Source: Puniceicoccaceae bacterium K14 (GTDB lineage Bacteria; Verrucomicrobiota; Verrucomicrobiia; Opitutales; Opitutaceae). Taken from it: a stretch of DNA of 64,000 nucleotides. Below, piece after piece: positions 29,773 to 53,209 of this stretch (positions are counted from its first letter, which is position 1; each line of letters opens with the position of its first letter). The stretch lies in NCBI GenBank assembly GCA_022538095.1, contig JAKYXN010000019.1:1-64000 (forward strand), given 5' to 3'. The notes beneath the pieces were generated by a model. The model worked only from the letters and a program-made list of their open reading frames with translations. It was not told where the DNA came from and ran no database searches. The translations under genes were made by a program, and so were the position numbers.

Positions 29773-32700
29773 TTATTCTCTCGGAGCTACTTCGTAGACT
29801 TCCACAAGCGCCAGTCCGGTAGCGCCATCCGCGGAACTAACCAAGATCGTATAGGCTCCGGGTTCGAGATCTGCTATTATCGCGGCATCATTGCCATTCT
29901 CCTCTAGCAAAAACGCTCCAACATGCTCGGTAGTTGCCGCCAAAGACTGTAAGTCTTCATTATCGCCCCACCGTAGGTTGTTCGCAATCACATCCCCGTT
30001 CGTATCGACAATTTGGAGAAATGGATTTTCCAAAACACTGCTCAATCCGAACTGAGCCAAACTCGGCCCAACCGCTCTTACGAGGAGTCGACTAGATTGT
30101 CTGCCCGCTATCACAACACCTGGAATCGCAATTTTCTCATTAAGGCCGACGAACGCTCTCGTGGAGAGGTTTATCAATCGCGCGTTACTTCCCGACGCTT
30201 CGTAAACTTCGATAAGGCCAGTACCGGCACTTTCATTCGCCCCATTGAGAATAACCGTGTATGCGCCTGGTTCCAAAGTCGCATAAATTACAGTGTCATT
30301 AGAATTTTGATCTACATGAAACGCTCCCAATCGCTGGACTACTGAAAGAATCGATTCCTGATTTGCAAGGTCACTCCATCCCTGGCTCGTTTCAACCACT
30401 TCACTATTCTTGAGAAGAGTCAGCACCGGTTTCGCAAGCGCATCCGACAAGTTGAAGTCTTCTAAGCTAGGACCAATTCCACGTATCAACAATTGCTTGG
30501 TATCTTCTCCGTCTATCACAAAACCAGCAATAACGACTTCAGAGCCAGTGCCGACATGGGCTCTAGTCGACAAATTCACCAAGCGATTCTCCAAAACGAC
30601 CTCTCCCACATCTTCAGAATCAGAAGACAGAATCGAAGCACTCAATTCCGAACTCGAAGAGAATACTGGCAGTAGCTCATTTTGAGGAATCACCTCGATG
30701 CCACTAATCTTCGGATTCTCAATACCACGAATAAATTCAATGTTCAGCTCGCCATCCACAATGGAGACAGGAACCGTGATTGCGTAGGCTGTATTGGCAC
30801 CCACTTCCTTGAATATATCCAAATTTTCTGCAACCACGTCGCCCTCTATGCTAACACTGAAAACTCGAGCGCCCTCGAACATCGTTCCCACGTACACTTC
30901 CGCAAAGTACAAATTTACTAAATAGTCTCCGTTATCTACGCTAAATGTGTAACCCAAATTTGGATCATCGAAGAAGTCAAAGCGCTCACTTTGATAAATG
31001 AAATCGTCTTGTGTGCTCGCTATACCGTTTGCCACTTCGAAGGATGCTCCGGTATTGAAACCAAAGTCACCGGACCACTCACGACCAAGGGAATCGGTGT
31101 AAGCCCCACCGCCTGCATTCACCAAAATAATTGGCTCACCTAATGTAGTTGTTGAAATCGCAGCACTCAATCCAGATGCGATATCTGCAAGATCAACCGC
31201 CTGCACTTGGTACTCGTATGAAGTCTGCGTTATGAGGCCTCCATCCACAAAACTCGTCTCCGTGGCTGGGACCGTTGCGATAGGCGATCCATCGCGGTAG
31301 ATTTCGTAAAAGGAAATACCCGTATTGTCGATAGACGCTTCCCACACTAATTCTATAGTCGATTGAGTGACAGCAGCAAAGACCACATTCTGCGGAACGC
31401 TTGGAGCTGTTGTATCGTTAGGAAGTTCCAATGTCTCAATCTCTAAAGTTGCAGCACCAGAGACATTACCCGAAACATCGCTAGCATAGATTTCGTAGGA
31501 GTACACCGTACCTGGCGCCAAGCCGATATCCGTAAAACTCAAATCCAAGGTAGTGCCAACAAGAACCTCATTTCTGTACACACTATAGGTCACCGCACTC
31601 GTTTCATCACTAGAAGCGTTCCATGATAGAGCCACTGAATCGAAGGAAATCGTATCGGCTACAAAGTCGCTCGGATCCGTCGGAGCCTCAGTATCGCCTG
31701 CACCCATAGGAATCACTTCGATACCACTGATCTTCGGGTTTTCGATTCCTTCCAACAACACAATGTTCAGCTCACCATCCACAACCGTTGTCGGGATAGA
31801 TATGACATAAGCGGCATCACCGCCCACTTCTTGATAAATATCGACATTCTCAGCGACGACTACACCTTCAACTTGAACGTTGAATACGCGGCCTCCCTCA
31901 AACATTGCCCCAACATAGATTTCAGCAAAGTGGAGATTCACCTGATAATCGCCATTATCGAAATCAATTGCGTATTCGAGTTCTGGATCTCCATTAAAAT
32001 CGTAACGTTCGCTCTGGTAGATCGTGTCATCTTCAGTACCGGAAATTGGCCCGGTAATTTCAAACGTATCTCCAGTATTGAAGCCTGTATCAGCTTCCCA
32101 AACTCGACCAAGCGAATCTATATAAGAACCGCCACCTGCATTTAGGAGATATACGCTTTCACTCGTTGTTAGAACGGATTCCGCTAAACTGGAAGCCGAA
32201 GAATTACCAGCAAGATCAACCGCTACAACTTCATATGAATAAGAGGTGAGAGCAACTAAATCGACATCAACGAAATTCGTCTCAGATCCTGGAACCGACC
32301 CAACGAGGCTCCCATCTCTGTAGATCTCGTAAAGGGCTATCCCCGTATTGTCTGTCGACGCGTTCCATGTTAATTCCACTGTTGAATGAGTCACTGAATC
32401 AACCATCAATCCTTGCGGAGTACTCGGTGCAGTCGTGTCTACAGGCAATTCGAGTGTATCCACATCCAAAATAGCTGCGTCTGATACATTGCTTGAGGCA
32501 TCGCTGGCGTAGACTTCGTACTCGTAACTTGTTTCCGGCAACAATCCGGTGTCAGTGAAATAGGTATCAGCGGTTGTACCGACGAGCGTCTCGTCACGGT
32601 AGATGGAGTACGAAACCTCGCTCACATCGTCTAAAGATGGATTCCAAGACAAAGTTACGAAGTCGAATGAGATATCGTCCACTACCAACCCAGCAGGATC

Positions 32701-35700
32701 CGTAGGAGCTACAGAATCACCAGGTCCAGTAGCAAACAATTCGATACCGCTAATCTTCGGATTTTCGGTCCCTTCAATTAGAACAATATTCAATTCGCCA
32801 TCAACAACAGTCGTTGGGATTGATATAACATAAGCCGCTTCGCCACCAACTTCGGCAAAGATATCGACATCTTCTGCAACTACCACACCCTCGACTTCAA
32901 CACCAAATACTCGGGCACCTTCAAAGAGAGTACCTTCGAAGATTTCGGCAAAATGAAGATTTAAGAGATACTCTCCGTTCTCTACACCGAACGTATATTC
33001 CAATTCAGGGTCACCAAAGAAGTCATATCGTTCGCTTTGATAAATAGTGTCATCTTCAGTGTCTGCTATATCCGAATCGACTGCAAAAACACCGCCGGTA
33101 TTGAAGCCAACATCTGCCTGCCAATCACGGCCTTGGATATCGGTATAAGCAGGTCCTCCTGCATTTACTAACAGAACGAGTTCAGGGTCACCTCCTGCGT
33201 CGCCATCCTCTACGAGCAACGAGACCTTATCAAGGAGGTTGCTCGAATTATCAGTCCCTTGCGGTGTAAACACTATTGTAGTCACAGTTTGACCATCGGG
33301 TACTGTATAGCTGCCTTCGTACTTCACCCACGCCTCTGGAGAAGTGCTAAAAGAATCTATAGTCAATTCCGCTCCAGGAGCTCCGAGACTCATCGTCATT
33401 GTATCCGTAGTATCGCGACCTCGATGATAAAATGACCATTGTAATTTTGTTCCAGGAACGGTTGCAACTGCTTGAGCCCAACTGATTCCATTGAGTTCTG
33501 CTAACTGATTCCCGTCTACGACATCGAACCCCAAGAAGCCATCGGCCCAGAATTCCAATTCAGTGCCATCACTATCCCAACCTTCAACTTGACTTGGAGC
33601 CAGATGTACAAAAGTCGTAGCGACTATCGCTGTATTCTCAAAACTACCGTTGATTAATAGTTCTGTGCCTGCCACGGGAACATCTGGAACATCCGGATTC
33701 GGGTCCGAATTATCTCCAATTCCGTCGCCATCCGTATCAGTGGTTTCTGTTGGATCATTAGGGAAGGCATCATCGACGTCAGGTACACCGTCACCATCGG
33801 TATCCACCTCCGGTGCACCCCCTATTGTGTATGAAATCTTGTATTTATAACTGCGTTGCAGGTTATAAGCATTTAGGCTTTTGCCTACATTGGACGCTGC
33901 AATCGTTTCTCCTTCCACAATCGTTGGCACATCTCGGTCTGGATTGAATGGAACGGACGTACTCATCAGCGGAGCCGGAAGAAGTCCATAAATATCGTCC
34001 TCAGCCTGACCATTTGTTGTCGAAGCAGGAATTACCGAGCCACTGCCCCAACCGGTGCCATCGGGAAACGCGTCCATAAATCCTGTGACTAGAGTTTCAC
34101 CTGGTTGCAGAGTGACGAATGTAGAACCTGTTGCAGAGAAGGTAAAGGTATTTGGACCAATCACGTACTCCCCAGCCTCACGCGTTTCTCCAATAGCTAG
34201 TACCGTAAAATCGCCTGCGCCATGCATCACTGCAATTAACGGTGTGACCGGATTCCCAAGCTGGTTTGCATAAAACTGGAAATAGTTCATCGAAATCGTC
34301 AGCGATCCAGAATCTGTATTTGTATACGTGTCCGTCGTATTTATATAGAGACTTGGATGGTGTCCGTCTTGAAAATTCCCTCCCGTACTCGTATCGTTAC
34401 CCAAACTATCTGAAAGGCTGAGTATCCACTCTGCTAGTATCGTTATTCCCTCCTCATCAACGAGGTTTTTAGCGAGCGGAGGCATACTGAAAGACTCACC
34501 TACTGAATGTGCCCGCACGTACGCGATCGAGCGTTCTAGGTCACCGGGAACGATAACCGCTTCACCCAAAATGCCGAATGGTTCCGCCAATTCGCCATTG
34601 ATCAAACCAGAAGACTCAAGGTCAGTTACGAGTCGAGCGTCGAAATTTGCACGAACCCCCACGTCCGGATTGTGGCAATAAGCACAATTGACTTCGATGT
34701 AGGAGCGTGCTCGATCTTGGATTGGAGCACTCGTATCGTCGATTGGAGTAGTCGCAAGAAGGGTTGGGATTTTCTCTTCATCCAATGGCTCACTAAAGAT
34801 TCCTAAACTATTCCAATATTCGAGTTGGTTAACGATCTGACTAGAATTAGAGTACTGTAAATCGCCGTTGAGCTGATGCGAGTTAGCTCCTAGAAACCCG
34901 TTTGTCTGATCGGCATGGCAAGTACGGCAGTCAGACCGACTAGGGAAATCCCAAACTTGCTCGCGAGTGCCACCAGATGTTTCGGTGATGTTCAACGAAC
35001 GCTCATCGCCAGTCCTGAGTAGCTCAGCGTCAGTTCCGTCTTCATTCCAGCGATAACTGACTCCATAGTAGCCATCTGGTGTTCGAACAAAAAAGCGCGT
35101 TTCGATATTGATAGCAGACGTTGGATCGTCCTCAACTAAGGCCATCTGGAAATGTTTGATAGCTACTGTTCCCACCGGGAATTCAAATAGTCCGTCATCT
35201 TGAATGATTACTTGCTCAGAGGAGTCGCTAAATGTCCCATCGTTGGGAATAGCAATCCAACGATGCTTGATCGCATTGTCGGACCAGAAAGGAACATTAG
35301 GCGCATAAGGAATAATTTGATCTGTGGATGGTATGAAATTCTGAAGATCAGAAAACGCTCCTGTTTGAGAAAGAAGAGAAGGTGGTTCTTCGGTGATGCC
35401 TCCTTCTACCGTCAGTTCAAAAATTGACCCGCTGTTGACTGACTGTGTAGCGAGAATACGCCCGTCGCGTAAAACAGTATATGAACCTATACCGCTATTG
35501 AAACCTCCAGGCACTTGACCTATCAACTCAACGCCTTCGGGCAATTCTTCAGTTCCAGTGAGACGAAACGGACCATCTGCATCCGCATCAATCGCCCAAA
35601 GTTCTCCTGTGAGAAAATCGGAAAAAACGTGTTTTCCATATAAATCCGGATACAAATCGCCACGATACACACCGGCGCTAATCACGGAACCTCGTCCGTT

Positions 35701-37974
35701 GCTATGAGAATAATCTAAAACTGGAGGCTGCTCTGTACCAATTATAGACGATGGCTTGTTAATCGGCCCTCCGTCTTCGTCAAACCCTTCTCCGTACCCC
35801 CACTGGAGATTACTTCCTTTATAAATCACGCCAACTTCCTCATAATTCCCTTGGCCGACATCTCCGTAATAAATATTTCCGGTAACGGGATCCTGAGTGA
35901 ACGTCCACGGATGTCGCAAACCAATGGCATAGTACTCTTCTAGGTTGTCTGCTTCCTCTCCTGTAGTTGCATCGAAGTCTGCGTCATAAAAGGGATTGTC
36001 AAACGGTATCGAATACCCTTGAGAAAAGGATTCTGGCCAACCACTTGGACGTTGGTCCCCCGTGTCTCCAACATCAGAAGGCTCTCGAGGTTGACGGGCT
36101 ATGGGCGAACTCTTCGCCGGATCATTATCCACATCGATTCGAAGGATACCGCTCCAGAAACCCAGGTCGATTCTCTGAGTTGAGTAAAACTTGTTTTCTG
36201 AATTACCCTCATCTCCAAGACCAATATATAGGAAACCATCACTTCCAAAATACATATGACCCCCGATATGCCAATGCTGACGATCGTATTGTTGAATCAA
36301 CACCAACTCTGAATCTAAATCAGCTTCTGTTTGGCCATCCGGGATGGTAAATCTAGAAATTCGATTGTATCCATCTGTTCCCGACCCGGTCTGCCCTGTA
36401 ATCGTAGGATGGTAACGATAAGCGACATAAATGTAGCCACGATTTGGAGAATCGGGATCCTCGAATTCTGGATGAAAGGCAAAACCAGTGCACCCTCCTT
36501 CCCCTGTTCCAGGGTAGTTTGTAATACTGTTTAGGTTCAGGATGAGTTCCTTTTCATTGATGGTAGGATCCGTGTAATCAAATCTCCAAAAGTAGCCCTC
36601 CTTTGAAACGACCACGATCTCATCTTTAAAAGGGTGTTCTACGATGCGAACCGGCTCAATAAAGCTAAACTCGGGAAACGCGTTCTCCGTCGTAAACTGC
36701 CCTCCACTAACAGAGCTTCCGGGAATTGTGTCTGGGAAGATGCCGTTCAAATAAGGCCCCATCGAGTCTTGCGGGACCCCAGGACCATCCGCGGATGGAT
36801 CCACAATTTGAATATTATCTATCAGGCTTGAAACTGTAGCTGATGTCGAAGCTGCGAACACTATCGATGTCTGCGCTTGGCCTTCGGGAACGATATAGGT
36901 TCCTTCATAATAAGACCACTCTGTTGTCGAAGAGGTGAATTCACCGACTAAGACTTCTTCTCCAGGAGATCCTAGTGAAAGCCTCATCGTGTTATCAGCG
37001 CTCGCACCAGTTCGCCCTCGATGATAGAAGGACCACTGTAAGGTCATACCTGGAGTCGTAGCAAACGGTTGCTGCAATGTCGACCCGTTAAGTTCCATTA
37101 CCAGGTTTCCATCGACTGCTGAAACGCCTTCAAACCCGCTGGTCCAAATTTCAATATCACTGCTTGCGCTAGACCATCCACCAACATCAGAAATAGGAAC
37201 GAAGCCCCAAACTGCAGGTACCGTTGCGGTGCTTTCAAAGCTTCCATTGACTAGGAAGTTAGTATTGAAAGGGTTGTCAGTCGGATCGTTTGGATAAGGA
37301 TCTGAAACATCCCCAACCCCATCTCCATCGGAATCCACGCTCTCAGTAGGATCGTTAGGAAATAGGTCATCAGTATCCAAAACACCATCACCATCACTAT
37401 CCAGCCCGTCTATTTCCGTGAGTTCTATAATCGACACGTTATCCAATAGGCTTGAAACTGTGTCAGTCGTAGTTGCAGTGAAAACAATAGTGGTTTCCGT
37501 TTGGCCATCAGGAACAACATAGGTTCCTTCATGAAAAGCCCATTCGCCCGCCAAAGATGTGAACTCTCCTATGAAGCTCTCGTCACCGAGAGCACCTATA
37601 GACAATATCGCAGAATTGTTTTCAACTGCCGCAGTTTCCCGTGCTCGATGATAAAACGACCATAGCAACGTAGAGCCAGGCACTGTCTCAAAGGACTGGA
37701 ACAATGAAGAGCCGTCTAATTCCGCAATTTGAACACCTTCAACTGCAGGAGCATTTTTGAAACCGCTAATCCAAATTTCGATTGTACCGCTTGCGCTGTT
37801 CCAAGCAGACACCTCCGAGGACGGAATAATCTGAAAAGTAGCCGGTTGCGAGACCGTGTCCTCAAAGCTACCGTTCTCTATCAAAACGGTTTGGGCAACA
37901 ATGGTACTTGACCAACTGACCAATAGAAGAAAGCCAATAGTAAAAGTCTTAGAAAATGAAGCGAATGGTTTCAT
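29773..37974 (-). CDS. Giant secreted PQQ-type sugar dehydrogenase / diheme cytochrome / malectin protein
   Basis: 2733 residues with signal peptide (cleaved after about IVAQ, residue 28). In order: two DUF642/carbohydrate-binding-like repeats (about 32-190 and 240-395, each with SFYHR and DGQT), separated by TSP3 calcium repeats (DSDGDGV); a glucose/sorbosone dehydrogenase-like beta-propeller (about 435-855, GHMYFGSDGFLYIGLGDEG); an SO2930-type diheme cytochrome module with CRTCH (1016-1020) and CAYCH (1097-1101); an unknown domain (about 1190-1390); TSP3 plus a third binding repeat (1430-1590); three malectin modules (about 1600, 1940, 2283) separated by paired FnIII domains; and two C-terminal LVN-STR repeats (2460-2733). 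It probably oxidises a sugar at the cell surface and passes electrons to heme. The intact frame over 8.2 kb argues for function. Confidence 0.85.
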   Translation of the reverse strand: MKPFASFSKTFTIGFLLLVSWSSTIVAQTVLIENGSFEDTVSQPATFQIIPSSEVSAWNSASGTIEIWISGFKNAPAVEGVQIAELDGSSLFQSFETVPGSTLLWSFYHRARETAAVENNSAILSIGALGDESFIGEFTSLAGEWAFHEGTYVVPDGQTETTIVFTATTTDTVSSLLDNVSIIELTEIDGLDSDGDGVLDTDDLFPNDPTESVDSDGDGVGDVSDPYPNDPTDNPFNTNFLVNGSFESTATVPAVWGFVPISDVGGWSSASSDIEIWTSGFEGVSAVDGNLVMELNGSTLQQPFATTPGMTLQWSFYHRGRTGASADNTMRLSLGSPGEEVLVGEFTSSTTEWSYYEGTYIVPEGQAQTSIVFAASTSATVSSLIDNIQIVDPSADGPGVPQDSMGPYLNGIFPDTIPGSSVSGGQFTTENAFPEFSFIEPVRIVEHPFKDEIVVVSKEGYFWRFDYTDPTINEKELILNLNSITNYPGTGEGGCTGFAFHPEFEDPDSPNRGYIYVAYRYHPTITGQTGSGTDGYNRISRFTIPDGQTEADLDSELVLIQQYDRQHWHIGGHMYFGSDGFLYIGLGDEGNSENKFYSTQRIDLGFWSGILRIDVDNDPAKSSPIARQPREPSDVGDTGDQRPSGWPESFSQGYSIPFDNPFYDADFDATTGEEADNLEEYYAIGLRHPWTFTQDPVTGNIYYGDVGQGNYEEVGVIYKGSNLQWGYGEGFDEDGGPINKPSSIIGTEQPPVLDYSHSNGRGSVISAGVYRGDLYPDLYGKHVFSDFLTGELWAIDADADGPFRLTGTEELPEGVELIGQVPGGFNSGIGSYTVLRDGRILATQSVNSGSIFELTVEGGITEEPPSLLSQTGAFSDLQNFIPSTDQIIPYAPNVPFWSDNAIKHRWIAIPNDGTFSDSSEQVIIQDDGLFEFPVGTVAIKHFQMALVEDDPTSAINIETRFFVRTPDGYYGVSYRWNEDGTDAELLRTGDERSLNITETSGGTREQVWDFPSRSDCRTCHADQTNGFLGANSHQLNGDLQYSNSSQIVNQLEYWNSLGIFSEPLDEEKIPTLLATTPIDDTSAPIQDRARSYIEVNCAYCHNPDVGVRANFDARLVTDLESSGLINGELAEPFGILGEAVIVPGDLERSIAYVRAHSVGESFSMPPLAKNLVDEEGITILAEWILSLSDSLGNDTSTGGNFQDGHHPSLYINTTDTYTNTDSGSLTISMNYFQFYANQLGNPVTPLIAVMHGAGDFTVLAIGETREAGEYVIGPNTFTFSATGSTFVTLQPGETLVTGFMDAFPDGTGWGSGSVIPASTTNGQAEDDIYGLLPAPLMSTSVPFNPDRDVPTIVEGETIAASNVGKSLNAYNLQRSYKYKISYTIGGAPEVDTDGDGVPDVDDAFPNDPTETTDTDGDGIGDNSDPNPDVPDVPVAGTELLINGSFENTAIVATTFVHLAPSQVEGWDSDGTELEFWADGFLGFDVVDGNQLAELNGISWAQAVATVPGTKLQWSFYHRGRDTTDTMTMSLGAPGAELTIDSFSTSPEAWVKYEGSYTVPDGQTVTTIVFTPQGTDNSSNLLDKVSLLVEDGDAGGDPELVLLVNAGGPAYTDIQGRDWQADVGFNTGGVFAVDSDIADTEDDTIYQSERYDFFGDPELEYTFGVENGEYLLNLHFAEIFEGTLFEGARVFGVEVEGVVVAEDVDIFAEVGGEAAYVISIPTTVVDGELNIVLIEGTENPKISGIELFATGPGDSVAPTDPAGLVVDDISFDFVTLSWNPSLDDVSEVSYSIYRDETLVGTTADTYFTDTGLLPETSYEYEVYASDASSNVSDAAILDVDTLELPVDTTAPSTPQGLMVDSVTHSTVELTWNASTDNTGIALYEIYRDGSLVGSVPGSETNFVDVDLVALTSYSYEVVAVDLAGNSSASSLAESVLTTSESVYLLNAGGGSYIDSLGRVWEADTGFNTGDTFEITGPISGTEDDTIYQSERYDFNGDPELEYAIDFDNGDYQVNLHFAEIYVGAMFEGGRVFNVQVEGVVVAENVDIYQEVGGDAAYVISIPTTVVDGELNIVLLEGIENPKISGIEVIPMGAGDTEAPTDPSDFVADTISFDSVALSWNASSDETSAVTYSVYRNEVLVGTTLDLSFTDIGLAPGTVYSYEIYASDVSGNVSGAATLEIETLELPNDTTAPSVPQNVVFAAVTQSTIELVWEASIDNTGISFYEIYRDGSPIATVPATETSFVDGGLITQTSYEYQVQAVDLADIASGLSAAISTTTLGEPIILVNAGGGAYTDSLGREWSGDFGFNTGASFEVANGIASTQDDFIYQSERFDFFDDPNLGYTFSVDNGDYLVNLYFAEVYVGTMFEGARVFSVSIEGDVVAENLDIFKEVGANTAYAITVPVSIVDGELNIEFIRGIENPKISGIEVIPQNELLPVFSSSSELSASILSSDSEDVGEVVLENRLVNLSTRAHVGTGSEVVIAGFVIDGEDTKQLLIRGIGPSLEDFNLSDALAKPVLTLLKNSEVVETSQGWSDLANQESILSVVQRLGAFHVDQNSNDTVIYATLEPGAYTVILNGANESAGTGLIEVYEASGSNARLINLSTRAFVGLNEKIAIPGVVIAGRQSSRLLVRAVGPSLAQFGLSSVLENPFLQIVDTNGDVIANNLRWGDNEDLQSLAATTEHVGAFLLEENGNDAAIIADLEPGAYTILVSSADGATGLALVEVYEVAPRE

Positions 37975-41273: not shown

Positions 41274-44200
41274 CTATTCGTCGTCTTCAATTTCGTAAAC
41301 TTCCACTAAAGCCACTCGCTGGTCGCCCTCAGCAAGAATAAGCTCGGAAGAGACAATAGCAGTATAAACACCCGGAGAAAGGTTAGCGAAAATTGATGCT
41401 TCTAGGTCGTTAGAGGGAGCAAAGCCGCTACCCGAAATCGATTGGGCATTTGCGCTCTCATTCCAAGAAGAGCTAGATTCGACAAGCTCCGCCTCTTCTC
41501 CCATTCGGTACAAGTCGACTTTCGGATCCGGCAAGTAATTCGCAACTCCTGCCGCCTCGAGTGAGGGTCCTTTTGCATTAACCAGTACTGTCTTTGCTTC
41601 CTCGCCATCGATCACAAATCCAGCAATCATAACATCTTGGCCCGAGCCAATAAGTCCGCGCGTTGAAATATTTACCACTTTGCTTATGACACCTGCGACT
41701 TCTCCTGCTATTTCATATACCTCTACGAGAGAAACGCCCGTTTCACTAGCAACAATCTCAGAATCAACCACCACTGTATAAATCCCGGGATCGAGCATGA
41801 GCAACATAGAAGGTTCGCGATCATCGCCAGGCGCATAACCAGTGTCAGTAATTTGCGATGAATTTTCCTCTTCTATCCAATTCGTGCTGACAACGGTCAA
41901 CCCAACCCCACCTTCTGGAAGCATTTGGAATAGCGTCAACTTTGGATCAGCCAAAAAGTTACTAATTCCTGCCGCTTCCAATGAAGGTCCCTTTCCGTTG
42001 ATTAAGATTTTCTTAGGTCCTTCGCCATCGATTACGAACCCTCCGATCATGACTCCTGTACCTTGACCCGCAGGCCCACGAGTCGAGATATTAACCAATC
42101 GGTCTGAGGCGACATCACTATCTTCGGTAGCAGCAGCAAACCCAAGCTCCTCTTGGTCTCTAGTCACCAGAGTCCCTGAAAGCAATTTGTCTTCTTCTTC
42201 AAAAATTGCATTCAATTCGCCTCCGTCATCGAAGGTTACAACCAATTCGCCTGTCTCTTGGATATCACCTAGCCCGGGCTCGGCCTCTCCGTTCTCAGTT
42301 TCCGATACAGCGAAAACTTTTCCTGATGGAGCCTTAACCATTCGCACAACCCCTGAAGTGTATACGCTGCCAAACTCTCCTTCATAGTACCCAGCAGAAT
42401 TGCTGTGTACATTAGAGCTTGGTTCTTTCGTTGCCGTACCAGTTGTGGCACTACCATCAACCGTAATCAAAAGATCTTGTCCTTCGCTTGAGAGTACAGA
42501 CGAGCTGGTAGAAACCGCTGGGAACAATGGCACTGAACCTGCAAATAGATGACCGTTAACCTCGAAAGAGAAACTACCATCCGAATTCAATTCAATGCCT
42601 TGCTCAAAAATCGCTTGTGCTCCCTCTTCCAAATATATCAAGAAGTCAGCCAGCCCGTCTAACGAAACGACAACCGCAAAACTTCCTGAATTCCCAGTGA
42701 ACTCTCCTATGTAATAACCATCATAGGTAAGCGTTTCAAAAATTGCACTTGGACTAGGGTCAGAAACCCGCTCGCCATCAACTGCTAGCACTAGGTATTC
42801 GTAGCTCGAACCAGGCGTCAAAGACTCATCTGTATACTCAAGTGCACCGACGACCGTATCCCATTCTTCCAACACTCCCGAAGGGTTTACTTTTTGTATA
42901 ATAAACTCGTTGATTTCACTATCACTTACAGTCCACGAGAAAGTCAAATCTCGGGCATTTGCTTCCACAAGCTCAGGTTCTGTTGGAACCGGCACTGGAG
43001 CCTGCTCAACAACGATAAAGTTCGCTACTACAGATTTATCAATATCCATAATTACCGATGCTGGATTCACACTACCTGACAAAGCTCCCGACCAGTGGCT
43101 AAACTCATAGCCTTCAGCTGGAATCGCTTCAACTTGTGCTGATTGGTCTTGATCGTAAGTGCCAACTCCAGTCGTCGTTCCACTATTCTCAGGTGAAACA
43201 CTGCCAGACAAATTATAAGTAATCACTTGCCCGCCACCACCGCCAGAGCGCGTCACAGAGGCTATATTCGAGAAGTCCGAAAAGTAATTACCTCGTATCG
43301 CAAAAACCCGATATTCGTAAGTCTCATTCCCGATGTCGAAGTCATGTTCGAACGACTCTATATTCGATATAACTCCTTCAACGAACGACCAATCTCCTCC
43401 ACTGGCATTGCGATACTCGATTCCAAAGCTATCCTCGTCCTCTGACAAATCGTCCCAAGACAATTGCACTTTCCCACTTATGTCCTCAGCGGTTAATGAC
43501 CCTGGAGCCACAACTTCTTCGGAACCGCCCCCGCCATTTCCGCTTGAGCCGCTAACGGATGCGACATTCGAAGGATTAGAAACATCTTCGCCTCGCACTG
43601 AGACAACGCGGTACTCGTAAGTATCAATTCCGATATCAAAGTCATGCTCAAAGCTTTCAACGTTCGCTCCAGTCGATCCGACATAATTCCAGAAGTCAGA
43701 ACCCTCAGGGCGTTGCTCTATTTCAAAACCGTCTTCGTCGCTCGACAAGTCATCCCACGACAACTGCACCTTCCCATCAACGTCATTAGCAGACAAGGAC
43801 GCAGGAGCTATCAATTCGGTGTTGCTTCCGCCTCCACCAGAGCCCCCGCCGTTGCCATTTGAGCCGCTAACAGCTGCGACATTGGAAGGATTAGAAACAT
43901 CTTGGCCGCGTACTGCTACAACGCGGTACTCGTAAGTATCGATTCCGATATCGAAATCATGCTCAAAACTCTCAACGTTCGCACCGATCGATCCGACATA
44001 ATTCCAGAAGTCAGATCCTTCAGGACGTTGCTCGATTTCAAAACCGTCTTCGTCGCTCGACAAATCATCCCACGACAACTGCACCTTCCCATCAACGTCA
44101 TTAGCAGACAAGGACGCAGGAGCAATCAACTCAGTGCTACTTCCGCCACCAGAGCCCCCGCCATTGCCATTACCTGAACGAGAGATAGATGCAACATTCG

Positions 44201-47200
44201 AATAATCAGAAGAGTTTTCATTCTTCACAGCCTTAACACGATATTCGTAGGAATCGTTTCCAATATTTATATTGTGAACAAACGCCTGAGAATTAGCCCC
44301 GATAGAAGCTACAATATCCCAATTTTCAGTACCTGATGCGCGGTATTCAACTTCATACCCCGTTTCATCACTCGCGTTATCAGTCCACTCAAGTCCAACG
44401 TTTCCAGTATTATCAACCGCTGTAAGAGAAGAGGGAGCTGATACACTCGAGCTACCACCAGAGCCTCCACTACCGCTACTTGCTTCAGGGGTGTAAGTGC
44501 CAGGAATTACAACATCGTTCCCCATATCGCCGTCTGTCGTCACTGCGTTAATACGAATTCGATAAGCCGTACCATTAGTCAATTGAGGGAGATTGTAACT
44601 CGTAGTCTGAGCGCTGCCAGTCTGCCCAATATGCGTCCAATTACCAAACACATCATCAACTTCCCTTACATAAAGAACCGCCGAATCGTAATCAGGGTCA
44701 CTTGACGCTGTCCAACTTACCGTTAGAGAGGCATCACCTTCCTCAACAGAGAATCCATCCAAATCTGCTATTGGTAAGGTTCCATAGTAAAAGGAAAATA
44801 ACTCTACGGTACTCGCATTGTTACCTGCTAAATCTTCTACACGATAATTGAACCTATAGCGCTCGCCTTCGGTCAATCCAGACAAAGTCGGACTCCAACT
44901 AGTCGCTGCTACGTCTAGAGTCGCGTCAGTCAAAGTCGAAAAATCGTCCACTACAGAAACGTAGGCACTTCCAATACCGCTCAAATTATCTTCAGGCAAG
45001 GTCCAAGAAAAGCTTAAGTTTGATGGGTCCGAAATCCAAGTCCCGGTTTCATAAGTCGCTTCCGTTGCACCGCTCGGTTCCCCCGGGCTCTCCTCGTCTA
45101 CGCCATAACCCACCTCATCTCGATCCACCAAGATTTCATTTTGAGCTGCATCGTCAGTCGCCTGCAGCCTAAATTGATAATACCCTTGACCCTCAGGCGC
45201 ATCGAAGGAGATCACATCCTGCACATTTGTGCCACTCACGTCTTTGACTGCATCATCAGTCCAGTCGCCCCAAATTTCATTGTCCAAAGAATATCGATAC
45301 GATAGACTTACGCTATCCACCTCACTATCGTCTGTAGCAGTGAAAGGAATATCCCAAGGGACCGACCCATGATTGCCTCCCTTCCAGTACCAATAATTGA
45401 ATGCTATTTCGCCATTCGAATCTAGATGATCAGGTCGATTACCTCCGGTCTCGCTAATTAATTCGAAATTTGAATGCGGTAAGTAGTCCAAGGCAACAGC
45501 TGCTGTCGCTGCCGTACCTACTTGCAACACACCCCATACATCAAAGGATGGCAAAGTAAAATCTAAATACGAACCATCTACCGTAAAACTAATATCAGTA
45601 ACAGCGCTCGACCCTACGATCATCCAAGAAAGCTTAACATCCCCACTTGTAAATCCGTCTGGGATTACGACCGAACAAGAGACGCTGGCTGTAGCATCAA
45701 TGGTTTGATTGTCTACATCTTCCGTTAGGTTGATATCGCGATTAACCAAGTGGTAAATTTCCGACCCGTCACTTCCCTCGTAACGATGCGCTCGCACGAA
45801 GCGTGAATGATCAGAGGTAAAATCATAAGAGAGTTCTGCGTCGACCGCACTCGTCCAAGTACTACGGATTGTGGATAAGTCGGTCTCATTTTGAGCAGTA
45901 AGCTCCCATTCACCTTCAGAAGCGCTCGTAGCAGAATTTCCATGATATTGATCTCCCAAGTCGGTCGCAAAGTGAATAACTTTCCCGCTACCAACGGAGG
46001 TTGTTCCTGTAGTGGAAAAATAGTCGTCGAAGCTACGAACACTGCTCACGTCAGTTCCATATTCATCAGAGTCGGCAACATCACCCAATCCAATAACGAT
46101 TCCACCGCCAGATAAGTAGCTATCCAACTTAGAAACCTGCGCATCTGTAAGCATCTTTGCTTGTGGTAAAACAATCGCTTTATACGAACTCAAGTCCGCA
46201 CTCGAAAATGGATCTACTCCATCACGCTTGTCAGGATGCCCAGCAAACAATACATCAAGCGGTCGATGAAGGTCTCCTAAAAGCATCATAGCCCCGAGGT
46301 AGCTCGACGTAAATGTACCCGTATCCTCAATTTGGTGAGCTTCATTGTAAAGAACAGCAACCTCCCCATCCTCGTTTTGATTAAACAATTCGGGGAACAT
46401 CGATGGAAATTGCAAGAAAGGTACCATTGGATCCAAGCGAGCGTCCTCATGATAATAAGACACCCAATCAATCGGAATTTGATACAAGCCACCTGCCGCA
46501 AAAACTTCAGCCGCATACACCTTACTCAGCTCTGTGATATGAAGTTTTCCATACGGATCATTGGAACCGTTCATAGAACCGGTATTAGCTGGGAAATTCC
46601 ACGACCAAAAGCGCTTATCGAAATTTCGGATATTCTTATAAACGTGATCCAAATTATAATACGGATAACCTAAGGCATCCAAAAACGTTTCTGCCATGCC
46701 CACGTCCAAGTTATCCAAATTATCCCACTGACGCGCTCCGACATAGCGATTAGCCGCAAAGTACACATCCATGCTATACTCGCTATTTGCATACGTGCGT
46801 ATTTCAGAAGTCCACTCCTCAAAGAACGCTCGCTCAACCTCTGTCATATGATCGAGCCAAGCATCCCACAAATCGCCGTAAGGAGGACTAGAACTTACCG
46901 AGTCAGAATCCGTGTAGCTTCCACCAGAAGCCGATTTCAAAAAATCTGCATAATCAAAAGTCGTAGCATCGGAAACGCCCATCCCTACCAACTCATCAAC
47001 CGTGTAATTGGCACTTAAGAAATCACGAAAGCCAGCTAATGCCTCGCTATCGAATGACAACGTACCCAACCCAGGCGATGCATTGTCTAATAAAAAATAA
47101 CTCGCTCCCAAATCTACAGCGACCTTACCCGAATCCACCAAATAGTCGGTAAAAGCCGATCGCGTAAAAACAAACCAAGAGCCCGTCGAACCGTCGAGAT

Positions 47201-47543
47201 CCACACTCTTTCCGGCCTCGCCTACCAACTCAGCCCCTTCTTCAGATTCAATAACACCAATGGCATAATAAGCAGCGTACTCGATGCCGTTAGCGTTCCA
47301 CTCTTCAATCGCATTAGCTATCTGGTCCTTCCGGACTTCGGAGAGCGTATCATCGATCCAACCGAAATCATCCACTACTACAGAAGGTTTTGTCCCATTC
47401 GTATAGATTGGACGTGGTCCAAAATAGGTTAAAGCGTCATCAGGGTCTCCCACATCAGCGTGCAGGCTCAGTGTTAAAATTGCAGCGATTAAAAGTAGCT
47501 GCGCCTTGAGGATAGCAAAGGGTGAGATAGAGGATATTTTCAT
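41274..47543 (-). CDS. Giant secreted glycosidase-like multidomain protein
   Basis: 2089 residues with signal peptide (to about LSLHA). Residues about 35-385 form a TIM-barrel-like region with 'FDSEALAGFRDFLSANYTVDEL', a pattern like GH42 beta-galactosidases. About 390-510 resembles their glutamine-amidotransferase-like trimerisation domain (YKAIVLPQAKMLTDAQVSKL, GGGIVIGLG). Then come Ig-like/FnIII domains (680-1020), four FnIII domains (1030-1435) joined by Gly/Ser/Asn linkers, an InlB-type repeat (1440-1515, GYEFSHWSG), another FnIII, an unknown domain with beta strands, and two C-terminal LVN-STR repeats (1813-2089). It is probably a secreted polysaccharide-active enzyme; the family and catalytic residues are not secure. 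Confidence 0.75.
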   Translation of the reverse strand: MKISSISPFAILKAQLLLIAAILTLSLHADVGDPDDALTYFGPRPIYTNGTKPSVVVDDFGWIDDTLSEVRKDQIANAIEEWNANGIEYAAYYAIGVIESEEGAELVGEAGKSVDLDGSTGSWFVFTRSAFTDYLVDSGKVAVDLGASYFLLDNASPGLGTLSFDSEALAGFRDFLSANYTVDELVGMGVSDATTFDYADFLKSASGGSYTDSDSVSSSPPYGDLWDAWLDHMTEVERAFFEEWTSEIRTYANSEYSMDVYFAANRYVGARQWDNLDNLDVGMAETFLDALGYPYYNLDHVYKNIRNFDKRFWSWNFPANTGSMNGSNDPYGKLHITELSKVYAAEVFAAGGLYQIPIDWVSYYHEDARLDPMVPFLQFPSMFPELFNQNEDGEVAVLYNEAHQIEDTGTFTSSYLGAMMLLGDLHRPLDVLFAGHPDKRDGVDPFSSADLSSYKAIVLPQAKMLTDAQVSKLDSYLSGGGIVIGLGDVADSDEYGTDVSSVRSFDDYFSTTGTTSVGSGKVIHFATDLGDQYHGNSATSASEGEWELTAQNETDLSTIRSTWTSAVDAELSYDFTSDHSRFVRAHRYEGSDGSEIYHLVNRDINLTEDVDNQTIDATASVSCSVVIPDGFTSGDVKLSWMIVGSSAVTDISFTVDGSYLDFTLPSFDVWGVLQVGTAATAAVALDYLPHSNFELISETGGNRPDHLDSNGEIAFNYWYWKGGNHGSVPWDIPFTATDDSEVDSVSLSYRYSLDNEIWGDWTDDAVKDVSGTNVQDVISFDAPEGQGYYQFRLQATDDAAQNEILVDRDEVGYGVDEESPGEPSGATEATYETGTWISDPSNLSFSWTLPEDNLSGIGSAYVSVVDDFSTLTDATLDVAATSWSPTLSGLTEGERYRFNYRVEDLAGNNASTVELFSFYYGTLPIADLDGFSVEEGDASLTVSWTASSDPDYDSAVLYVREVDDVFGNWTHIGQTGSAQTTSYNLPQLTNGTAYRIRINAVTTDGDMGNDVVIPGTYTPEASSGSGGSGGSSSVSAPSSLTAVDNTGNVGLEWTDNASDETGYEVEYRASGTENWDIVASIGANSQAFVHNINIGNDSYEYRVKAVKNENSSDYSNVASISRSGNGNGGGSGGGSSTELIAPASLSANDVDGKVQLSWDDLSSDEDGFEIEQRPEGSDFWNYVGSIGANVESFEHDFDIGIDTYEYRVVAVRGQDVSNPSNVAAVSGSNGNGGGSGGGGSNTELIAPASLSANDVDGKVQLSWDDLSSDEDGFEIEQRPEGSDFWNYVGSTGANVESFEHDFDIGIDTYEYRVVSVRGEDVSNPSNVASVSGSSGNGGGGSEEVVAPGSLTAEDISGKVQLSWDDLSEDEDSFGIEYRNASGGDWSFVEGVISNIESFEHDFDIGNETYEYRVFAIRGNYFSDFSNIASVTRSGGGGGQVITYNLSGSVSPENSGTTTGVGTYDQDQSAQVEAIPAEGYEFSHWSGALSGSVNPASVIMDIDKSVVANFIVVEQAPVPVPTEPELVEANARDLTFSWTVSDSEINEFIIQKVNPSGVLEEWDTVVGALEYTDESLTPGSSYEYLVLAVDGERVSDPSPSAIFETLTYDGYYIGEFTGNSGSFAVVVSLDGLADFLIYLEEGAQAIFEQGIELNSDGSFSFEVNGHLFAGSVPLFPAVSTSSSVLSSEGQDLLITVDGSATTGTATKEPSSNVHSNSAGYYEGEFGSVYTSGVVRMVKAPSGKVFAVSETENGEAEPGLGDIQETGELVVTFDDGGELNAIFEEEDKLLSGTLVTRDQEELGFAAATEDSDVASDRLVNISTRGPAGQGTGVMIGGFVIDGEGPKKILINGKGPSLEAAGISNFLADPKLTLFQMLPEGGVGLTVVSTNWIEEENSSQITDTGYAPGDDREPSMLLMLDPGIYTVVVDSEIVASETGVSLVEVYEIAGEVAGVISKVVNISTRGLIGSGQDVMIAGFVIDGEEAKTVLVNAKGPSLEAAGVANYLPDPKVDLYRMGEEAELVESSSSWNESANAQSISGSGFAPSNDLEASIFANLSPGVYTAIVSSELILAEGDQRVALVEVYEIEDDE
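43521..44135 (-). repeat. Recent tandem duplication of an FnIII-coding unit
   Basis: Units at 43821-44135 (315 bp) and 43521-43820 (300 bp) start with the same TELIAPASL codons. They are almost identical in protein (about five differences outside the linkers) and highly similar in DNA. The flanking FnIII units are clearly related but much more diverged. This indicates recent unequal crossing-over or slippage inside the gene. Confidence 0.85.
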
Positions 47544-47689: not shown

Positions 47690-49081
47690 TTACTCGAAAA
47701 ACGAATCCACTTCCGGCAAAGCTCTGTCGATTTCCTCTACGCGATAGCCAAAACCGCTTTCGCACAGAGAGCTCAAATCGAGAAAACCATCTTTTCGCTC
47801 ATATAGCCCCGGATGTATAAGCGCTTCTAGCGACGATGCATCGGGATAGAACTGCATCGCATTGGTTTCCAAGCCCATAATCGTGCCTGCGTGAGCAGCC
47901 AACAAGGTATGTGGAATTTGAGCCAACATCGGATTCGTCAAGTCCTGCACCATAAGCGGAAGCGTGTGAGCCGACGCCCAAGCCTGCATCAACACCGCGT
48001 TTGTCTGCGTTTTACACGTTTTCAAAGCCACCCCCGTCCAACCCCGAGATCGCCCTTCACGAACAAGTTTCCAATCATGAGCGCTCTCGTCCATGAAGAG
48101 TGGCTTCAGAGCAGAAACCGCGTTAACATCCATGGGCGACTCCTCCATTTCGTAGGCAAATGGCTGCTCCACGTACAAAATTCTTCGATACGTATCCGGA
48201 GCATCCTCTGACAAACGCTCCAACATACGTGTAATAAAAGAGACTTCCTTGACTGTGCAATTAAAGTCCGCGCATAGCCATTCGCAATCAAACGCTTTCG
48301 CCATTTCTCCGATAGCAACAATACGCTTGTAGTCGTGCTCCCAATCTTGGCCAGAAAGCTTAATTTTCAAGCAGTTAAGAGAGTCCCGTTTAATCCACTC
48401 TTCTAATGTTCTTGGATAGGCATCATTCGGCTCGCTCCCGTCCAAATCCGCACTTGTCAAAGGATCTCCCGCCCCCACAGAGTGCCATGCAGGGATCCTT
48501 GAGGGAGGATTTTTTTCTAAATAGTCATTTGGATACTGCCCAACAAAAGAGACATCTACATCGTCTGCCGGCTCAAGGTATGCAGACAAGTCCTGATTCA
48601 TATACGGCTTCTTATAAGTCTCGTACACCGGAACCCGATGGAGGTTCGCATAGGCATCATGCAAAGCGATATCAAAGGCCGACAAACAAACCAAGCCCGC
48701 CAAGTAGGAAATCCCTCCCGGTACTCCTATTTCTTCGGACTTACGCAACTCATGAAACTCCTCTTCCTGGAATCCATGACAAATTTCGATCGGATGGCCC
48801 CGCTTTTCGTAGTTGCAAAGCTCTTTCCCCAACAGGCGACAAAAAGCCTTCATTCCAGCAATTCGTTCCTGAACGCCTTCGGAACTTGGCCACGCCCACT
48901 GAGCGCTCAAAGGTGTTTCTCCCCAGCCTCCTATTCGACTTCCCTTTGTATCCACAACCTCCAGCCACACACGAGCACAGGTCACCTCGCTTAATGTTTG
49001 TGAGCCAAACTTATAAGGCGTGCGCGTCGTAACCGGCAAAAAGTACAACTTACACGAAGAAATCGAAACATCGTAGTTCAT
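47690..49081 (-). CDS. Enolase-superfamily (MLE/MR-like) enzyme
   Basis: 463 residues, longer than usual (360-400), mostly from an insertion around 160-230 before the barrel. A capping domain (1-140) precedes the TIM barrel. The acid/base KxK is K239-I-K241; the metal ligands are likely D272 (CADFN), E305 (YVEQP) and D331 (MDES). A second lysine K354 (ALKTCK) suggests the muconate-cycloisomerase-like subgroup. It would abstract a proton next to a carboxylate of a sugar acid or similar substrate. It is the last gene of a three-gene operon, two bases after the dehydrogenase gene. Confidence 0.85.
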   Translation of the reverse strand: MNYDVSISSCKLYFLPVTTRTPYKFGSQTLSEVTCARVWLEVVDTKGSRIGGWGETPLSAQWAWPSSEGVQERIAGMKAFCRLLGKELCNYEKRGHPIEICHGFQEEEFHELRKSEEIGVPGGISYLAGLVCLSAFDIALHDAYANLHRVPVYETYKKPYMNQDLSAYLEPADDVDVSFVGQYPNDYLEKNPPSRIPAWHSVGAGDPLTSADLDGSEPNDAYPRTLEEWIKRDSLNCLKIKLSGQDWEHDYKRIVAIGEMAKAFDCEWLCADFNCTVKEVSFITRMLERLSEDAPDTYRRILYVEQPFAYEMEESPMDVNAVSALKPLFMDESAHDWKLVREGRSRGWTGVALKTCKTQTNAVLMQAWASAHTLPLMVQDLTNPMLAQIPHTLLAAHAGTIMGLETNAMQFYPDASSLEALIHPGLYERKDGFLDLSSLCESGFGYRVEEIDRALPEVDSFFE

Positions 49082-49083
49082 AG

Positions 49084-50190
49084 CTACGATTCATCCCCCA
49101 TTTTAAACACGAGCCCTAAAATTGAATCCGGATCTTTTGAGATTTCAGCCATTTCTTCCTCCAAACAATCAAAGGGCACTTCGTGAGTCGTTAGTGTTTC
49201 AACGGCAACTTTTCCCTCCTTGAGCCACCGCATGCAGAGTTCAAGATTCTCCCGCGTATCCCACCGGACGAATACATCCCCATAATTTCCACCGCGTTCC
49301 CATTCCTTGTCGTGATAGCCAGGTCCTGTTCGCGACGAACGTCGTATATCGATATTAGTCAAGGTTCGCGTAAAAGGGAATTCTGCGCCCCCCACAACAA
49401 TCATCACTCCCATTGGATGACCGTCTGGAGCCACCTTCATGCATTTTTCCAATGCATTCGCTGGCTTTTCCGCGTTACCGCCCAACGCAAGCACACAAGT
49501 ATCCAGTCCCTTACCTTGGGTGAATTCTAGAGTCTTTTCGGTCGTATCTTCTGAACCCACTAAAACCGTTGCACCTATTCCCAACTTCTTAGCATTCTCT
49601 AAACGAGCGGGCACTGTATCCCAGCCTATTACGTAGCATCCTGCGAGTTGAAACAATCTAGCTGTTAACAATCCAACCAGGCCAAGACCTGCAACAGCGA
49701 CATATTCGCCTAACTCCGGCTTAGCTCGACGCACCGCCTGCATTGCAGTAGCCAAGAGCATCGCATAACTTCCTCTTTCAAAACTTACTTCGTCAGGCAA
49801 ACCAACTACAAGATTCTGCGGAACAACTGTGTAGGTGGCATGTTGAGCATAGCGAACACCCACCGCAGCCACGCGATCGCCTGGCTGAACAGTCGTCACA
49901 TTCTCTCCCACCGCAACTACGATACCCGTATTGGAGTAACCAAATCCACGACGGTTTAAATCCGGATCCGGATTCAGCTGCAGGTCACGCAAAACACGCC
50001 ACCCTCCTGCCGCGTGTCGACCTTGCTTTGATGCGCCTTTTAGTTCCGAACCCGGGCTAATCAAAGACGCCTTCACTTCGATCAAAACCATACCGGCGTC
50101 CAAATCTGGAATATCTGTTTCTTCAATCTTGAAGGAACCGTCCCCTTTTAATGCTACAATTCTGCGTTTCCCAATTTTTTCTGTATTCAT
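49084..50190 (-). CDS. Medium-chain (MDR) alcohol dehydrogenase-like oxidoreductase
   Basis: 368 residues. A GroES-like N terminus (DAGMVLIEVKASLISPGSELK) is followed by a Rossmann domain with the NAD(P) motif VAGLGLVGLLTARLFQLAG. The usual catalytic-zinc pattern (CGTD, GHE) is missing: the equivalent place reads SPGSELKG and GFGYSNTG, as in the zinc-less threonine-dehydrogenase-like/bacteriochlorophyllide-a-dehydrogenase-like MDR group. It probably oxidises a polyol or sugar acid in the pathway of its neighbours. Operon gap to the enolase-like gene is 2 bases and to the epimerase 19. Confidence 0.88.
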   Translation of the reverse strand: MNTEKIGKRRIVALKGDGSFKIEETDIPDLDAGMVLIEVKASLISPGSELKGASKQGRHAAGGWRVLRDLQLNPDPDLNRRGFGYSNTGIVVAVGENVTTVQPGDRVAAVGVRYAQHATYTVVPQNLVVGLPDEVSFERGSYAMLLATAMQAVRRAKPELGEYVAVAGLGLVGLLTARLFQLAGCYVIGWDTVPARLENAKKLGIGATVLVGSEDTTEKTLEFTQGKGLDTCVLALGGNAEKPANALEKCMKVAPDGHPMGVMIVVGGAEFPFTRTLTNIDIRRSSRTGPGYHDKEWERGGNYGDVFVRWDTRENLELCMRWLKEGKVAVETLTTHEVPFDCLEEEMAEISKDPDSILGLVFKMGDES

Positions 50191-50209
50191 ATTACGGACA
50201 TTCCTTTTC

Positions 50210-53163: not shown

Positions 53164-53194
53164 ATACTCTGTTGAACACAACAGAGTATTTTTG
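53164..53194 (+). terminator. Terminator after the YHYH gene
   Basis: A perfect 11-bp stem ATACTCTGTTG/CAACAGAGTAT with a 4-base loop (53164-53189) is followed by TTTT. It lies 45 bases past the stop and 15 bases before the next ATG, so the downstream gene is partly uncoupled or has a promoter overlapping this site. Confidence 0.88.
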
Positions 53195-53209
53195 TATCAA
53201 CTAATACAC

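Follow-up and report, generated by a model that had tools for sequence, protein, structure and literature searches.

A verrucomicrobial propeller-diheme protein with binding modules, a probable P460-like heme domain and an incomplete PQQ site

Introduction

What would a bacterium do with a single polypeptide that joins a sugar dehydrogenase-type propeller, two heme motifs and a series of predicted carbohydrate-binding modules? The question is raised by a 2733-aa open reading frame (ORF) of Puniceicoccaceae bacterium K14 (Verrucomicrobiota), encoded on the reverse strand at 29773-37974 of the window, i.e. the 64,000-nucleotide stretch of contig JAKYXN010000019.1 (assembly GCA_022538095.1) that was analysed here. 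An earlier note, made from the sequence alone, had read this ORF as a polysaccharide-anchored redox enzyme with a propeller of the pyrroloquinoline quinone (PQQ) type and a diheme wire, comparable in idea to cellobiose dehydrogenase. Our analysis leans towards a secreted, glycan- or surface-tethered oxidoreductase of a fused family, GSDH-TIGR03806, whose first heme probably lies in a P460-like domain and whose propeller lacks the equivalents of the three classical residues that clamp the PQQ carboxylates.

Results

The redox core belongs to a family frequent in Verrucomicrobiota

The region 29773-37974 is a single intact ORF with an ATG start, which bears out the single chain of the earlier note, and encodes a multidomain redox protein that is probably secreted: a likely Sec-type signal peptide was recognised by eye at residues 1-27 (37894..37974; all coordinates given for parts of the protein are on the reverse strand). 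The core comprises a GSDH/HHIP-type propeller (residues 425-860, 35395..36702; assigned from Pfam, alignment, model and fold comparison) followed by a unit, residues 865-1187, that matches the NCBIfam model of the SO2930 family diheme cytochrome, TIGR03806, over positions 2-314 of 314 (E 7.4e-67). Both CxxCH motifs lie within this unit where the note had placed them, CRTCH at residues 1016-1020 (34915..34929) and CAYCH at residues 1097-1101 (34672..34686). The score of 225.7 bits is under the curated cut-off of 313.3, as are those of 3/3 copies in the K14 genome, and we thus call the protein a relative of the subfamily rather than a curated member.

We found the core in 24 loci of named genomes, 18 of them with verrucomicrobial titles. 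Two CxxCH motifs are present in all 24 loci and the propeller is fused in 21, the matches of L043, L046 and L047 covering essentially the cytochrome half. When a 771-aa core query was compared with 200 genomes of the same family, K14 included, 100 had some match, many of them propeller-only or short, and 35 had a nearly full-length one (query start ≤ 75 and end ≥ 765; counted by hand from the listed rows), with a best identity of 41%. That the redox core might be unique is rejected by these 35 genomes. K14 itself encodes a 743-aa fused paralogue that spans nearly all of the core, and a 492-aa cytochrome without propeller.

The core is frequently extended. Pfam domains of 12 extended relatives include PA14, Ig-like, Laminin_G, MBG or cadherin-like extras in eight of them and none of these in the other four. 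The addition of binding domains thus appears to be a habit of the family, the malectins being the version found in the 2733-aa protein. The full architecture, with malectins and the module X described below, was not seen among the proteins scanned for domains, namely the 12 extended relatives, two of the six g130 proteins and the contig 232 protein.

The first heme probably lies in a P460-like domain

We modelled the heme-bearing part, residues 858-1192, with AlphaFold from a 26-sequence alignment (mean predicted local distance difference test score, pLDDT, of 88) and compared it to known structures by running VIA-align over the best 1000 Foldseek chains. Twelve chains reached Z ≥ 5, and the best 17 entries shown are all cytochromes P460 or c'-beta, from Z 7.0 (7s5o, 122 residues, 3.0 Å) down to 4.3, the next entry being at 3.7. 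At least one fifth of the fold rows cover just residues 3-200 of the heme-unit model. Matches to the model extend to between 16 and 47 residues past the first CxxCH, and the proximal histidines McP460 His144 and McCP His123 fall, assuming ungapped ends, at model residue 164, as compared with 163 for the 2733-aa protein. These data delimit a heme domain at residues 865-1045, with approximate borders (34840..35382; model, fold rows and profile comparison).

A sequence motif points in the same direction. The cores share a motif of the type [FLY]PxG[TASM]hxhK, where h is hydrophobic, and such a pattern occurs in 53/58 of them; the corresponding motif in nine P460 rows is [FW][PR][DE]G[TAS]xxxK (of 38 plasmid records matching P460, eight were retrieved, and L120 was left out as too short). 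A profile-profile comparison by hhalign, made without two of the 58 heme-1 rows (L060 and the second copy from L028), places the FPxGTVxVK stretch on NeP460 with P 0.00067, and Lys940 (35155..35157) falls on Lys70, the residue described as bonded to the heme. The alignment score, 29.7, was reached by none of 100 column shuffles (maximum 21.6), and compares with 13.2 for the reversed profile and 12.6 for the unrelated profile of module X. Within the family, Pro933 is kept in 58/58 rows, Gly935 in 57/58 and Lys940 in 55/58. The three exceptions at position 940 are Met, Glu and Gln, the latter in the paralogue from K14; Met and Glu are known replacements of the lysine in cytochromes c'-beta. The lysine motif is also retained in the propeller-less copies L021 and L046. 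The heme-1 domain appears to resemble cytochrome P460/c'-beta in its modelled beta-sheet fold, its C-terminal CxxCH and its lysine-bearing motif, and differs by its larger size, due to insertions, and by being fused with both a propeller and a cytochrome of class I; the lysine cross-link itself is a prediction.

Several results weigh against this assignment. The hhalign probability of the P460 alignment is just 27%, and in global mode no meaningful alignment was obtained; of two full-length paths with equal scores, just one is colinear through the CxxCH. A Z of 7.0 is below the level that is safe for a fold match alone, and VIA-align merely re-ranks Foldseek candidates; Foldseek itself gave no match at E ≤ 0.001, its best P460 row ranking 13 with E 0.28. 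By HMMER, the profile of the cytochrome half gave nine matches to E 10 with no P460 chain among them, and that of the heme-1 domain gave none up to E 10. The Pfam P460 family matches 1/26 members, at E 0.52, and neither of two heme-1 stretches scanned alone. Since plain HMMER gives no link to P460, we hold the identity of the domain as probable and not as proven. P460-type hemes have been described as having very low potentials and an accessible distal site, so that heme 1 would lend itself to binding a small ligand or substrate more than to acting as a plain relay. Both heme motifs of the diheme wire proposed earlier are there, and the unit, with its first heme in a P460-like domain, is probably no simple wire.

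The second heme looks conventional. Residues 1080-1187 (34414..34737) form a class I cytochrome c-like domain, for which PF13442 scores 22.8 bits in the 2733-aa protein, under its cut-off of 27. Among the 26 members, PF13442 matches 26 and PF00034 matches 19 at E up to 10, with best values of 2.7e-07 and 3.8e-06, respectively. Met1164 (34483..34485), invariant in 58/58 rows, is the probable sixth ligand of heme 2.

The propeller keeps one end of the PQQ site

The propeller is six-bladed and belongs to the glucose dehydrogenase superfamily, as indicated by a Pfam match over cut-off (GSDH PF07995, E 7.3e-18, two stretches), by the model and by the fold rows. VIA-align gave Z 36.9 to 3a9g, a PQQ sugar dehydrogenase of the Asd type, 36.6 to HHIP and 32.5 to sGDH (1c9u); Z to the Trichoderma AA12 structure 6h7t, 28.5, is below these three. 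By sequence, the closest PDB relative is HHIP (profile E 1.5e-41), for whose C-terminal part heparin complexes have been solved according to the structure titles. HHIP is without the Arg-Asn pair that the bacterial family retains, and the bacterial family is thus not simply HHIP-like.

We mapped the PQQ contacts via a plain GSDH of the window, whose alignment with E. coli Asd, Pyrobaculum Asd and sGDH is clean. The counts refer to 24 rows, the 2733-aa protein among them; one unrelated frame contained in the MAFFT alignment (L013_3_1445_+) was excluded. The equivalent of sGDH His144 is kept in 21/21 rows that have the position (His569 in the 2733-aa protein), that of Arg228 in 24/24 (Arg687) and that of Asn229 in 21/24, with a His in the 2733-aa protein. 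On the other side of the cofactor, the residues facing the PQQ carboxylates, Lys377, Arg406 and Arg408, are found in 0/24 rows each, which argues against PQQ; the 2733-aa protein has Leu788, Gly828 and Gly830 in their place, and both Arg of the sGDH R-x-R motif are absent from the GSDH-TIGR03806 cores of this alignment, which would also bear on Arg621 of AA12, a residue conserved with sGDH and Asd. In the larger set, Arg occurs at the Arg408 site in none of the 55 rows with a residue, 3/58 having a gap. Overall, the quinone-facing end of the PQQ site is, by alignment, retained in the fused family and the carboxylate-facing end is not. The PQQ-type propeller of the earlier note therefore stands as a fold, its best match in the fold rows being a PQQ sugar dehydrogenase, and not as a classical site. 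The note had itself held that missing PQQ contacts would count against it, which applies to the three clamp residues and not to His144 and Arg228.

In AA12 enzymes, the carboxylate side of the PQQ site can be rebuilt with other residues (PMC6881789), and PQQ use by the fused core is thus conceivable. For the 2733-aa protein we consider it doubtful; that the protein oxidises a sugar, with whatever cofactor, is possible, if somewhat short of an even chance. A further point against activity is that its propeller departs from most of the family at positions 678, 688 and 691: position 691, elsewhere Arg or His, is Thr solely in this protein, and Asn688 is His, as in 5/50 other rows. Activity could have been lost through such changes.

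Two other GSDH proteins of K14 were observed in passing. The plain GSDH used for the mapping (53192-54340, forward strand, 382 aa) keeps the equivalents of His144, Arg228, Asn229, Lys377, Arg406 and Arg408, and is a candidate user of scavenged PQQ, no PqqC being detected in the genome, as well as a natural control. A 481-aa ORF at L013:1459-2901 (reverse strand) has the reverse domain order, an N-terminal CxxCH (CASCH, residues 48-52) followed by GSDH; its R-x-R clamp is present, with Ser at the Lys377 site.

Module X marks a clade with a changed pocket

The segment at about 1190-1390 that the note had not recognised is a real domain, better bounded at residues 1199-1386 (33817..34380), and called module X here. 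It matches no Pfam family up to E 10 when three copies are scanned alone, and it has no relative on viral contigs and no plasmid match; its pLDDT in the joint model is < 50. Module X occurs in 2/371 other genomes of the same order, in one of which two proteins have a tandem pair of X copies each, placed before a polysaccharide lyase recognised by Pfam. This recurrence beside a lyase would favour a carbohydrate-binding role. Across the phylum, X is found in 5/386 other genomes, all of one genus. In the order of that genus, it is present in 46/386 genomes and 14/50 genera, 21/386 at E ≤ 1e-20 and the rest weaker. X stands behind the core in 12/12 of the best X loci of that order (one per genome, five being genomes of the genus), and in 11 of them the cytochrome half lies between propeller and X. 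The exception, L110, runs from propeller sequence straight into module X without a cytochrome half, which may reflect a deletion or an assembly fault.

Two X-bearing proteins of the genus that were scanned with Pfam start with a ThuA domain, which suggests a link to sugar metabolism; ThuA-GSDH-diheme-X-X proteins lie at L094:1066-5865 (forward strand) and L097:1152-6011 (forward strand).

In a tree of 52 cores (six of the 58, shorter than 600 aa, were left out), the core of the 2733-aa protein groups with six X-bearing cores from five genomes and one core from a Bacteroidia metagenome-assembled genome, with a support of 100/100. The 2733-aa core forms a long branch, and the X-bearing rows alone form no clade. 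This clade of eight shares changes in the pocket: position 678 is Leu or Met in 8/8 rows versus Arg in 47/47 others with a residue, position 627 is Arg in 8/8 versus His in 42/46 others, and the Asn229 equivalent is replaced in 7/8. Module X thus appears to belong to an enzyme sub-type with a different pocket. The Bacteroidia member, L024, has the core that, of all those in the tree, reaches the highest identity (40%); it also has PA14 and a C-terminal tail of the secretion type, and no X was found in it. Its presence may reflect transfer between phyla or mis-binning.

Binding modules and gene setting

The core is flanked by predicted binding modules on both sides. Self-comparison delineates three choice-of-anchor C type beta domains, at residues 31-182 (37429..37884), where NCBIfam also matches, 241-390 (36805..37254) and 1440-1586 (33217..33657); choice_anch_C (TIGR04362) matches in three stretches with 68.4 bits, under its cut-off of 120. 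Four D-x-D-G-D-G loops of the calcium type start at residues 192, 214, 1391 and 1413, within residues 192-231 (37282..37401) and 1391-1430 (33685..33804). C-terminal of the third choice-of-anchor domain, the order is malectin-fn3-fn3-malectin-fn3-fn3-malectin, and two C-terminal repeats follow. The three malectins, at residues 1600-1744 (32743..33177), 1941-2085 (31720..32154) and 2282-2426 (30697..31131), were delineated by Pfam and self-comparison. Pfam gives a Malectin E of 6.8e-82 over the three stretches and 273.7 bits in total against a cut-off of 23, each site scoring 96.9 to 99.5 bits, in line with the three malectin modules of the note. Pfam also matches fn3, and by self-comparison two pairs of fn3 domains separate the malectins, at residues 1752-1930 (1752-1842 and 1846-1930; 32185..32721) and 2093-2267 (2093-2183 and 2187-2267; 31174..31698). 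Malectin modules correspond to CBM57, a family of carbohydrate-binding modules (CBMs), and those of the protein are predicted to be among its several likely carbohydrate-binding modules. The at least six carbohydrate- or calcium-binding units counted by the note hold as a prediction from Pfam and self-comparison.

The chain ends with a tandem C-terminal module, residues 2465-2730 (repeats 2465-2593 and 2600-2730; 29785..30582), delineated by self-comparison and genome search, where none of the Pfam families reported for the protein has its strongest match. It has 58 matching pieces across the K14 genome, those of the 2733-aa protein included, and its carriers include the adjacent 2089-aa ORF and, on contig 232, a protein of 2629 aa. 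It is thus a general module of K14, apparently undescribed and probably serving in surface attachment or sorting, and is uninformative on the substrate. The 2089-aa ORF (41274-47543, reverse strand) has fn3 and Flg_new_2 domains, with two pieces of the C-terminal module at or by its end. The 2629-aa protein (L022:3422-11311, reverse strand) is a paralogue with four malectins, fn3 and the same C-terminus, and another N-terminal half, propeller-like by eye, in which Pfam GSDH gave no match at E 0.01.

The gene apparently stands alone: just one short ORF was seen by eye upstream, and the downstream gene is on the opposite strand. Further along the window, at 47690-51085 (reverse strand), enolase-like, Zn-dependent alcohol dehydrogenase-like and xylose-isomerase-like ORFs follow in series and would probably form a small sugar-acid catabolic cluster. 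The K14 genome contains two PF01578 cytochrome c assembly matches over cut-off, by which the hemes of the 2733-aa protein might be loaded.

Discussion

The 2733-aa protein is probably a redox enzyme. Slightly favoured is a secreted, tethered oxidoreductase that would work as follows. Once secreted, the protein would be tethered to glycans through its binding modules; a saccharide or other hydroxylated ligand held by these modules would enter the propeller pocket; electrons would exit via heme 1, of low potential, P460-type and probably five-coordinate, and pass through the Met/His relay of heme 2 to an external acceptor. Catalysis would take place either in the propeller, which would then use an unusual cofactor, or at the P460-type heme; given the missing clamps and the P460-like domain, a reaction centred on the heme has to be considered seriously.

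A true PQQ-dependent sugar dehydrogenase, using scavenged PQQ and passing electrons through two transfer hemes, would fit the superfamily of the propeller and its retained His and Arg, and E. coli, which makes no PQQ, likewise depends on an external supply, while AA12 is an example of a carboxylate side built from other residues (PMC6881789). We consider it unlikely, as the three classical clamp residues are missing in all 24 rows and PqqC was not found in the 97% complete K14 genome, in a search that covered PqqC and not pqqA/B/D/E (6/288 phylum genomes were over the cut-off, and the 14 control genomes of the own-genome search gave no match). A comparable propeller from Teredinibacter neither bound PQQ nor oxidised glucose (PMC10916295). 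If the propeller is instead a binding platform akin to HHIP, the P460-like heme could turn over hydroxylamine, nitric oxide or peroxide with the class I heme as outlet. HHIP being the best PDB relative by sequence, with its heparin complexes, the heme-1 lysine, the persistence of the lysine motif in L021 and L046, and the order of parts shared with hydrazine synthase alpha all speak for such an enzyme; it is quite unlikely all the same, because the Arg-Asn pair that HHIP has lost and the bacterial family has kept points to retained propeller catalysis, and no nitrogen-cycle gene was seen among the 10 ORFs scanned in the window, the rest of the genome not having been searched for such genes.

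A bacterial protein with a role like that of cellobiose dehydrogenase or AA12, supplying electrons to a lytic polysaccharide monooxygenase (LPMO), would also be in keeping with this overall set of propeller, cytochrome and binding modules, and the X183 domain of Cbp2D does reduce an LPMO (PMC8981238). No AA10 LPMO was found in the K14 genome, the search covering AA10 and not AA9, AA11 or other LPMO families, and the data from Teredinibacter have been described as being at odds with a transfer of electrons to an LPMO (PMC10916295), which makes this role extremely unlikely. Finally, the Thr at position 691, the His at 688 and a C-terminal module that is general in the genome could be those of a degenerate, non-catalytic adhesin, with a redox core kept by descent. 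This appears very unlikely given that the protein retains both heme motifs as well as Met1164, Lys940, His569 and Arg687, and that all eight members of the clade have a change at position 678, which suggests a pocket that has shifted rather than decayed. We thus retain, by a narrow preference, the tethered oxidoreductase.

Cellobiose dehydrogenase, the analogue proposed by the earlier note, is alike in idea only, as a dehydrogenase wired to a cytochrome, and we know of no part homologous between the two. It is a flavin enzyme with a b heme, and in one published view the bacterial enzyme filling its role is still to be identified (PMC10916295). Two other systems match better. The Coprinopsis AA12-AA8-CBM pyranose dehydrogenase (CcPDH) likewise unites a six-bladed propeller, a cytochrome and a CBM in one chain; it has a b-type AA8 cytochrome and different PQQ residues, whereas the 2733-aa protein is without equivalents of the sGDH clamp (PMC6881789). 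In Teredinibacter, TERTU_2567 / E7_MBN_03865 (CBM5, CBM10, GSDH and cytochrome c) and TERTU_3803 are also secreted chains of binding modules, propeller and c-type heme (PMC12055684, PMC10916295); their CBM families differ, and the likeness is one of description, not of sequence. TERTU_3803, the protein that bound no PQQ, combines X183/X132 cytochromes with a PF08450-X173 propeller (PMC10916295). In hydrazine synthase alpha, a six-bladed propeller, a catalytic-heme domain and a type I cytochrome c follow one another in like order; this subunit differs by its Tyr-ligated heme and bis-His second heme (PMC12758564, PMC12607021); the comparison is of part order, not of superposed structures, and a profile search gave no sequence match up to E 10, while its absence from the displayed fold rows excludes nothing.

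Secreted chains that unite a propeller, a cytochrome and binding modules are a kind already known, from Coprinopsis AA12 and Teredinibacter, and the core is common; of the possibly new domain order suggested earlier, what stands is the joint presence of X and malectins, not seen in the scanned relatives. Compared with the other GSDH-TIGR03806 fused proteins, found mostly in Verrucomicrobiota, with which it shares the propeller and diheme core (25-41% identity for the 24 loci and the best rows of the 200-genome comparison), the 2733-aa protein adds malectins, anchor domains, module X and a changed pocket. As far as we have seen, four points are new: the P460-like heme 1 in the TIGR03806 family, the family-wide lack of PQQ clamps, module X with its clade, and the malectins. 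No prior statement of them was found in the open-licence PMC literature, which is weak evidence of absence: no paper there pairs P460 with sorbosone dehydrogenase, and among the papers listed none mentions TIGR03806 or SO2930, though a paper naming either alone could be missed.

Taken to its furthest, this set of features would define a new class of extracellular enzymes in which a lysine-cross-linked, P460-type catalytic heme stands beside a glycan-facing propeller, with a class I cytochrome as acceptor, in a polysaccharide-anchored chain. We put this forward tentatively, as rather less probable than its opposite. If true, P460 chemistry would be directed at carbohydrates, or else nitrogen or peroxide chemistry would take place on the surface of a polysaccharide, and the architecture would parallel that of hydrazine synthase alpha. 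The core is frequent in Verrucomicrobiota, and module X would represent a new type of binding module confined to a single clade of it. More generally, anyone going by the domain names is likely to take this widespread verrucomicrobial family for PQQ sugar dehydrogenases with a diheme wire. If heme 1 is P460-like and the PQQ site incomplete, such an annotation is incorrect or falls short, and catalysis may occur at a heme. Outside Proteobacteria, the family and its clade-specific module X provide defined candidates for proteins that carry out redox reactions on carbohydrates outside the cell.

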